From Symbiodinium natans (Eukaryota; Sar; Dinophyceae; Suessiales; Symbiodiniaceae), in contig CAJNDS010002109.1 of NCBI GenBank assembly GCA_905221605.1, positions 401,168-465,167 of the forward strand: a stretch of 64,000 nucleotides of DNA, in the 5' to 3' direction. This document shows positions 16,083 through 19,000 of the stretch, in pieces. The notes beneath the pieces are model-generated. The model did not search any database. It was given only the letters and a program-made list of their open reading frames with translations, and had not been told where the DNA came from. How positions within the stretch are numbered: the stretch's first letter is position 1; each line of letters starts with the position of its first letter. The translations under genes and the position numbers were made by a program.

Positions 16083-19000
16083 ATGCTCTCTGTTTGGAGC
16101 ATCTCCGGGCACAGGGCGGCCGCGATACCCGTGGCTATATCCCCCTTTGGGAATATTTTTGTTTTATACGTTTGTTTACATAAAACACCCAAGAGGACAT
16201 TTTTAAAGGAATTGCTTTTTTTAAATGTTTGTTTATATATAACCCAAGAGAGGATGTTTAAACAAAATGTATTCTTTATGAAGGTTCTAAAATAAGGGGA
16301 GTATAGGTAGGGGAGCTGAGCGACGTCGCGGCCCTGAAGCGCCAACTTCGCCAGAATCTGGGTTGAGCTTCAAGGATCATTTAACGATTTCCCTTCCTTC
16401 CTTATAAAGGGAACCTATTCATAAATAGCTTTCAAAAGGTTTAAAGCACTTCTTTCCTCATGACTTTTAAGGGAACCTATTCTTAAATAATCTTCAAAAG
16501 GTTTATAAAGCACAGCTCAGGAATCTGGGGGTGCCAGTGAACTTTCAGGAGCTCCTCCATGATGGCCGGAGACTCCCTGATGATGAAGAGATAGCTGAGC
16601 CTTGGTAGCCCAGTGGTACCCTTTACCTTTCTTTGTTTTTGCTCTGGGTTCCCTTATATAATGTAGCCAACCATTATAACCAAAAAAAGGGTGCCCTTAT
16701 TATGATATTGTTACTGGGCTACCAAGGAGCCCATGGATCTGCAGTTGGTCGTATCCTCGACGTTCTGCAGCGCCGAGCTTGCATCGGAGTGCTCCGAGGC
16801 CGTCAAGAACGGCGAGGTTGAGATCGTGGATTGGCTGCTGGGAAGGCTGGGCGCGGGTGAGGTGAAATCCTTGCTGAGCTCGATACAGGACCAGTCAAGC
16901 CTCATTCTCGCCTCTACCCAGGGGCGCGTCGACCTGGTGCGATTGCTGCTGCAATTTGGGGTGGCCAAAGATTTGCCGGACCTCCAGGGCAACACTGCTC
17001 TGGTTCATGCATCTGCCTCTGGTCACGCTGGCGTGGTGCGCTTGCTGCTGGAAGTCCGCGCAGAAACGGACTCCACACACATGACACACAAGTCTGGCAA
17101 GACCGCTCTCATTCATGCATCTGCCGAAGGTCATGTCAAGGTGACTCGCTTGCTGCTGGAAGCTGGCGCGGCCAAAGACTTGAGGGATTTTCAGGGCCAG
17201 GCGGCCCTTACTCACGCATGTATTCGCGGCCATGCTCAGGTGGTGCAGCTGCTGTTGCAAGCCACTGCGGCCACAGACTTGACCGACAAGTTCGGCAGAA
17301 CAGCTCTATGTTATGCATCAGCGGAGGGCCACGCCGGGGTTACGCGCTTGCTGCTGGCAGCTGGTGCTGCCAAAAACGTGAAGGACATGAAGGGCCAGGC
17401 AGCCATTCTTCATGCGTCTCTTCGTGGCCATGCTGAAGTGGTGCAGCTGCTGTGTGAAGCCCGCGCCAAAACGGACTTGAGAGACGAGTCTGGCAAGACA
17501 GCTCTCATTCATGCATTTCTCGAGGGTCACGTCGGGATTGTGCGGTTGCTGTTGGAAGCTGGTGCGGCCACAGATGTCAGAGACAAGTCTGGCAAGACAG
17601 CTCTCATGCATGCGTCGGTGATGGACGTCGTTGAGGTGGCGCGCTTGTTGCTGAATGTCGGTTGTGCCGAAGACCTGCAAGACCGCCAGGGCAACACGGC
17701 CCCTTGGACCCAGAGTAGGCCCTTGTTCCTCTTCTTTAGAGTATAGGGTTCCCGTAATGCACCCTTCACACAGCGCACCCTTTATTCCTAGGTTACTCTT
17801 GGGTCTACTACTAATTGCTTAAGAACCCCGGAAAAATAAAAGTATCATTCCTGATTAAGGGCAATATATATATATATATATATAGGGATGACTTTTTTTT
17901 TTATTCTTTTGGGGCTCTTAACAGTAGTCTAGGCCCTCATCCACGCCTCCATCTACGGCCACGCCGAAGTGGTGGATCTTCTGCTGCAGGTCGGCGCGTC
18001 CATGGACTTGCTGGGCGCGAATGAAAGAACAGCTCCTGGCTGGGCTTTGGAGTACTATACTTTATAATACTTTTTTTGGTTTTGGGGTTCCCATTATAGC
18101 TACTTCTACCTAAAAAGTATATATTTTTTTTTCTGGGTCTACTCCAGAGGTAGGTCCTACGTAGGCCCTGAGGACATTTTTTTTTCAGATTTTCTCTTCG
18201 TGGGGTTCAAGGGAATCAGACTAGCTTGGGGCATCTTGGGGCATGCTTTCCTATGTTTTGCCTCTCAGTGGGGTTTCTTTATGGGGATCAGATGCAGGAA
18301 TGGTTGCGTTAACCTAAACCCTAAACCCTAAACCCTAAACCCTAAACCCTAAACCCTAAACCCTAAACCCTAAACCCTAAACCCTAAACCGCTTGAAGGG
18401 TGGCCATCCTAGGCCCTGGTTCATGCATCTGTCATGGGACATGAGAGCGTGGTCCGCTTACTGTGTGAAGCCGGCGCGGAAACGGACTTCGCGGACGACT
18501 TGGGCAAGACTGCTCTGCACCATGCCTCTGCCCAGGGACACTCGGCAGGCCCTTTGGGAACATTCTGTGGGTTCCCTTGTGGGGTGTTGGAGGGTCATAT
18601 TTGGGAATAACCCTAAACCCTAAACCCTAAACCCTAAACCCTATTTAAACCCCATTCAGGCAAAAACACAGAGGGCTTCATAAGGGCCATCATCCTAGGC
18701 CACATCGAGATTGCATGCTTGCTGTTGCAAGCTGGGGTGACCTTGGACTTGATGGACTGCCAGGGCAAGACGGCCCTGATGCACGCATCTGAGTCTTGGC
18801 AGCCCAGTGGTACCCTTTTCTTTTTTTTTGTGGTCCAGGGTTCCCTTTGCAAAGTAACCAGCCCAAAAAAGGGCGCCCTTATTATTATATGTTTCCTGGG
18901 CTAGCAAGGAGTGCGGATATGCTGAAATTGCGCATCTGCTGTTGGAATGCGGGGCGGGGAAAGACTTGCTGGACGCGGACGGGGGCACTGCTCTGATTCG

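Follow-up and report, generated by a model that had tools for sequence, protein, structure and literature searches.

A family of short foldback elements in the dinoflagellate Symbiodinium natans, here called family A, very probably represents MITEs acting as introners: non-autonomous DNA transposons with inverted-repeat ends, ~112 bp in length, whose exonic copies are removed as introns. We analysed a stretch of 64,000 nucleotides (positions 401,168 to 465,167 of contig CAJNDS010002109.1, assembly GCA_905221605.1), referred to as the window and numbered from its first letter. As a first-pass annotation of this DNA had proposed, two family A copies interrupt a single gene, and both have inverted-repeat ends flanked by perfect target-site duplications (TSDs), GAGC at copy 1 and GAGT at copy 2 (Table 1). 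The chance of finding two perfect 4-bp duplications at edges defined by terminal inverted repeats (TIRs) is ~1.5e-5, assuming equal base use. When both elements with one duplicate each are removed, together with three other introns, six exons join into 562 residues followed by a stop, and the product contains ankyrin repeats (Pfam Ank_2, E 4.2e-89); the first exon recognised starts at 16521. Retention of copy 1 brings in a stop at the fourth codon, whereas retention of copy 2 adds 118 nucleotides including the TSD, shifts the frame and leads to a stop near the 3' end of the copy. The proposal that excision of element plus one duplicate restores the protein is thus upheld, and the broader one, that a transposable element created the two putative introns, draws support from the element ends, the TSDs, the restored frame, an uninterrupted paralogue and similar cases in other genes.

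Table 1. Features of the window that bear on family A (window positions).
Feature	Positions	Strand	Remarks
Exon with Ubl-like segment, 5' of copy 1	16521-16596	+	starts after AG|G; frame matches next exon
Intron 1, 130 nt, GA-AG	16597-16726	+	TSD GAGC (16597-16600) plus copy 1
Family A copy 1, 126 bp	16601-16726	+	TIR 14/16; TSD 4/4, GAGC
Downstream GAGC TSD copy	16727-16730	+	first bases of next exon
Ankyrin exon	16727-17698	+	
Intron 2, 234 nt, GC-AG	17699-17932	+	contains other foldback-like sequence
Intron 3, 381 nt, GC-AG	18032-18412	+	
Intron 4, 162 nt, GA-AG	18537-18698	+	not family A
Intron 5, 118 nt, GA-AG	18791-18908	+	TSD GAGT (18791-18794) plus copy 2
Family A copy 2, 114 bp	18795-18908	+	TIR 11/16; TSD 4/4, GAGT
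Downstream GAGT TSD copy	18909-18912	+	
Last ankyrin exon	18909-19235	+	stop at end
Third family A copy	12209-12319	+	with TSD CTGC 12205-12323; no coding flanks seen
Fourth family A copy, 5' end only	7669-7689	+	no 3' end recognised
Uninterrupted paralogue, Ubl-like and ankyrin	28852-29883	+	control for site 1; weak ubiquitin, strong Ank matches

All five introns of the ankyrin gene are consistent with G[A/C]-AG followed by G. Because the target is duplicated, however, several junction registers yield the same mRNA, six for copy 1 and five for copy 2; the sequence by itself therefore cannot fix the splice sites, and GA-AG was picked on knowledge of the lineage. This register agrees with how dinoflagellates splice and with the remaining introns of the gene. 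The GA donor and AAG|G acceptor first assigned to the two copies accordingly stand as the choice best suited to lineage and gene, but as one among six and five equivalent ones. Annotation pipelines for these algae were modified to accept GA donors (PMC8045281, PMC10666404, PMC6123633), and a review puts GC/GA-AG introns in Symbiodiniaceae at 25-74% (PMC11453091). On this assignment, both family A copies would be spliced from transcripts of the ankyrin gene. Intron 2, too, opens with a related-looking repeat, CTTGGACCCAGAGTAGG, and has a short direct repeat at its flanks; five shifted registers besides GC-AG yield an identical mRNA, and this intron perhaps belongs to a second introner family.

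The surroundings of the gene hold further repeats. Reading by eye, we noted a diverged, disrupted family A-like copy at ~19550-19710, 3' of the ankyrin gene, and directly 3' of it a repeat starting GACCCAGAGTCGG. Positions 1-6000 of the window are AT-rich (31-35% GC, versus ~50% over most of the window) and carry open frames, one of which matches the integrase core domain rve; PHROG transposase and integration families were matched as well. We record this as a viral or Polinton-like stretch adjoining the ankyrin genes.

A search for empty alleles had been suggested at the outset, and the window itself supplies an empty site, in a paralogue rather than an allele: the uninterrupted Ubl-like/ankyrin gene lacks an intron at site 1 when compared at the DNA level. 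Over 141 aligned positions the two genes share 45% identity, with no gap at the site 1 junction. Homologous proteins, which cannot reveal introns in their own genes, complement this DNA-level comparison, which is confined to the window paralogue and site 1. At site 1, seven of 120 database proteins align over the junction and none is gapped there, while three of the seven are gapped elsewhere. At site 2, 119 of 120 align over the junction, 68 of them free of gaps; since this site lies within an ankyrin repeat and such repeats align with each other, the protein alignment offers weaker support here. One database homologue named S. natans (P0067) has the same Ubl-like/ankyrin layout; the exact 562-residue protein was absent among the 120 best database matches, in a search that scored part of the candidates.

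Family A is abundant beyond the window. Its 5' 21-mer, CTTGGYAGCCCAGTGGTACCC, has 1933 exact copies in the 759-Mb genome (2543 contigs), split 988 to 945 between the two strands, and the same pattern read backwards, as a control, has none. From 100 listed places among the 1933 we obtained a sample of 99 distinct copies, 73 of which have a recognisable 3' end (TIR of at least 11/16) and 26 of which do not. Among these 73, duplicated letters occur at four positions in 53, 57, 54 and 48 copies, compared with 14-22 at eight neighbouring positions. The duplication being confined to four positions, the family A TSD is 4 bp long; three or four positions match in 50 copies and all four in 34, and the 4-mers are very mixed. 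The duplicated GAGY described initially is thus perfect at both sites in the ankyrin gene but not a property of the family: only five of the 50 TSDs in this list-based sample start with GA, and a GAGY target preference was rejected on that ground.

A consensus of 112 bp, built from 47 copies of 95-130 bp with a median identity to it of 88%, folds back on itself. Folding three copies from the window gave two that are much more stable than shuffled sequences (z -4.62 and -5.56); for copy 2 the difference is not clear (z -1.67). MITEs are short, non-coding elements with TIRs, a TSD of fixed length and many copies, and family A fits this description, being short and numerous, with TIRs and a fixed-length TSD and without a transposase of its own. 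We take its 5' end to resemble a tRNA D-arm; a tRNA-derived origin was nevertheless set aside, as no tRNA was found in the window. Over copy 1, Rfam gave no family near its cut-off, the only hit being MIR2619, which scores 17 bits where the cut-off is 113 (E 0.056). The exact 21-mer was absent from collections of viral contigs and genome contigs, in which dinoflagellate genomes are not expected and from which this genome may have been omitted.

The first-pass annotation had also called for a search for family A in exons, and the sampled contexts indeed contain RCC1-like, LSDAT and RCHY1-like genes that are cleanly interrupted. Twenty contexts of 1.6 kb each were chosen among copies with TSDs; removal of the element and one duplicate restores a frame in four of the seven whose TSD starts G[A/C/T] (L091, L092, L094, L095) and, by judgement, in none of the 13 with other starts, and L103 adjoins ankyrin-like sequence without a clean frame. 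Frames are likewise restored in four of 20 contexts from the GT-start class (L115, L117, L121, L123) and in one of 20 from the AC-end class (L137, whose TSD itself starts with GA). Across the 60 contexts, 40 of which were picked by TSD class and none scored blind, exonic candidates number 9/30 for TSDs starting G[A/C/T] versus 0/30 for other starts (Fisher p 0.002). With both window copies the candidates total 11, and the upstream TSD copy starts G[A/C/T] in every one. Among 24 copies scored in 8-kb, 3-kb and window contexts, the clear exonic cases are the two in the window; L022, at 6879 (TSD TTTT, 3/4), has a long open frame.

Outside support for these candidates varies. It is good for L091, where removing the element and one TSD yields an RCC1-like product (RCC1_2, E 1.1e-37); for L094, which matches the uninterrupted homologue P0122 at 61% over 156 residues, ungapped across the junction; and for the RCHY1-like gene at L117, where 16 of 21 junction-spanning homologues have no gap within seven residues and a solved RCHY1 chain (7ynx_A) matches until four residues beyond the junction. 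It is fair for L115, in which LSDAT_euk extends across the junction (E 1.8e-5; 24.7 bits, just under the cut-off of 25.7), and weak, one-sided or missing for L092, L095, L121, L123 and L137. What marks an introner is one family at many unrelated positions, and family A copies appear as candidate introns in the ankyrin gene and in the unrelated genes at L091, L094, L115 and L117. A public predicted protein, P0121, is identical to the L094 gene 3' of the junction, and its first residues resemble the translated 3' end of an element; the protein may thus have been predicted with the introner left in place.

The same configuration might have arisen had the elements entered or replaced pre-existing introns and created none. 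Besides its family A copies the ankyrin gene does have three other introns, and nested insertions occur often; yet both edges of each putative family A intron coincide with the element edges plus the 4-bp TSD, which insertion inside an older intron would not produce, and site 1 of the paralogue is intronless. We regard this origin as highly improbable. We think it scarcely more plausible that the elements go unspliced and the ankyrin gene, having taken up two MITEs, is decaying as a pseudogene. Such decay would agree with the broken frame on retention and with the absence of the exact protein from the 120 best matches (part of the candidates having been scored), but the frame is otherwise open across six exons, equally clean copies sit in the conserved RCHY1-like gene and in other genes, and decay would not favour TSDs that start G[A/C/T].

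Spread by way of RNA, through reverse splicing of an excised intron, could also repeat one intron family in several genes. The TIRs and 4-bp TSDs, however, mark DNA transposition, and on these we rejected an RNA route; many copies moreover lie outside recognisable exons, with TSDs unusable as splice donors. Its probability seems to us close to nil. Creation of introns by a DNA transposon remains the reading that we favour, and its simplest course is the one published for S. microadriaticum introners (PMC9860276). Family A inserts with a target duplication that is 4 bp long and very mixed in sequence, as the flanks of its copies show. The right end of the element reads CCAAG and would provide the AG of the 3' splice site. 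Where the target starts with GA, GC or GT, the 5' splice site would come from the upstream TSD copy, and the downstream copy would contribute the G found after AG in the dinoflagellate lineage. With donor and following G both supplied by the target, excision of the element plus one duplicate would therefore leave the old coding sequence unchanged. Exonic copies whose target does not start G[A/C/T] would disrupt the gene and are likely to be lost; copies outside exons persist as ordinary repeats. The transposase is presumably provided in trans by another element.

Two observations sit less easily with this account, one concerning GT targets and the other strand. Strand-blind insertion predicts equal numbers of GT-start and mirrored AC-end copies, whereas we counted 294 and 92 (p ~6e-13 against a near-flank GT share of 0.586). 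Copies with a 3' TIR as well as a TSD make up 15 of 20 in the GT-class sample and 10 of 20 in the AC-class sample. We dropped this excess as proof of donor selection, for which it is suggestive only, because (TTTAGGG)n arrays just upstream of many copies add GT and because, among the 50 list-based copies with a TSD, GT starts (five) barely exceed AC ends (four). For G[A/C/T] as a whole, the same 50 copies give 14 starts versus six mirrored ends. Of 62 family A copies, 14 have TTAGGG in the 60 bp upstream and three have CCCTAA; the downstream counts are eight and 11. Ten of the 14 TTAGGG-flanked copies match at two or fewer TSD positions (L007, L013, L014, L015, L041, L051, L071, L072, L075, L081), as if telomere-like repeats had replaced their original 5' flank. 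In 20 longer loci TTTAGGG arrays are abundant, and TTTAGGG and CCCTAAA are balanced (1723 versus 1802).

As to strand, among 69 same-contig pairs of neighbours (contigs C1-C90, 100 listed places), 62 share an orientation (p 2e-12, with every pair taken as independent). In 15 of 20 loci the element strand has the greater summed open-frame length; because Pfam matched a model in just one of ten open frames from the 8-kb loci, gene direction was read from these sums alone. Few sampled copies look exonic, so selection in exons does not by itself readily explain the clustering. It could stem from selection acting in transcripts, from a strand bias at insertion or from copies being duplicated locally. 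It is conceivable, though we consider it unlikely, that family A is strand-aware, inserting or surviving in one orientation per large chromosome block, probably a block of gene direction, even outside exons; it would then arrive already oriented as an intron, a built-in fit beyond selection after random insertion. Should the clustering prove genome-wide and extend outside transcripts, strand-biased insertion becomes testable. Family A also permits copies inside and outside exons to be compared within one genome, and the contrast between 11 of 11 exonic TSDs starting G[A/C/T] and the mixed 4-mers of the family supports the notion that a sequence-blind transposon plus selection suffices to yield introns.

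Introners are already published for dinoflagellates, and family A is therefore a further well-supported example rather than a new phenomenon; it is not named in the open-licence texts that we searched, although it may be named elsewhere. Counts of introner-bearing genes exist for Symbiodiniaceae (PMC10522408), and recently active introner families are described in Polarella and other dinoflagellates (Roy et al. 2023, as cited in PMC11453091). Family A shares with the latter its standing as a putative dinoflagellate introner family, a likeness of kind and not of compared sequences. From MITEs in general it differs in that a subset of its copies is apparently also intron-like.

The introner elements of Amoebophrya A25 and A120 are MITE-like and form a hairpin, with inverted repeats 8-20 nt long and boundary direct repeats of 3-5 nt (Farhat et al. 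2021, PMC7789003). Family A resembles them in all four respects but differs in its predicted splice sites: the dinucleotides in Amoebophrya vary widely, whereas the 11 exonic candidates are all compatible with G[A/C/T]-AG. Closer still, by sequence features, are the introners of S. microadriaticum, which, according to Fig. 2B of Gozashti et al. 2022 (PMC9860276), have TIRs and a 4-bp TSD, carry the 3' splice site, take the 5' splice site from the TSD and leave the mRNA unchanged by insertion. Family A has the same TIRs and TSD length and would likewise draw its 3' site from the element and its 5' site from the TSD, and the published example intron, 115 bp by its coordinates, is of similar length. 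The S. microadriaticum introns come from annotation and RNA-seq and those of family A are predicted. The two are likened by description rather than letter by letter; in that description, family A and the S. microadriaticum introners agree in ends, target duplication and apportioning of splice sites.
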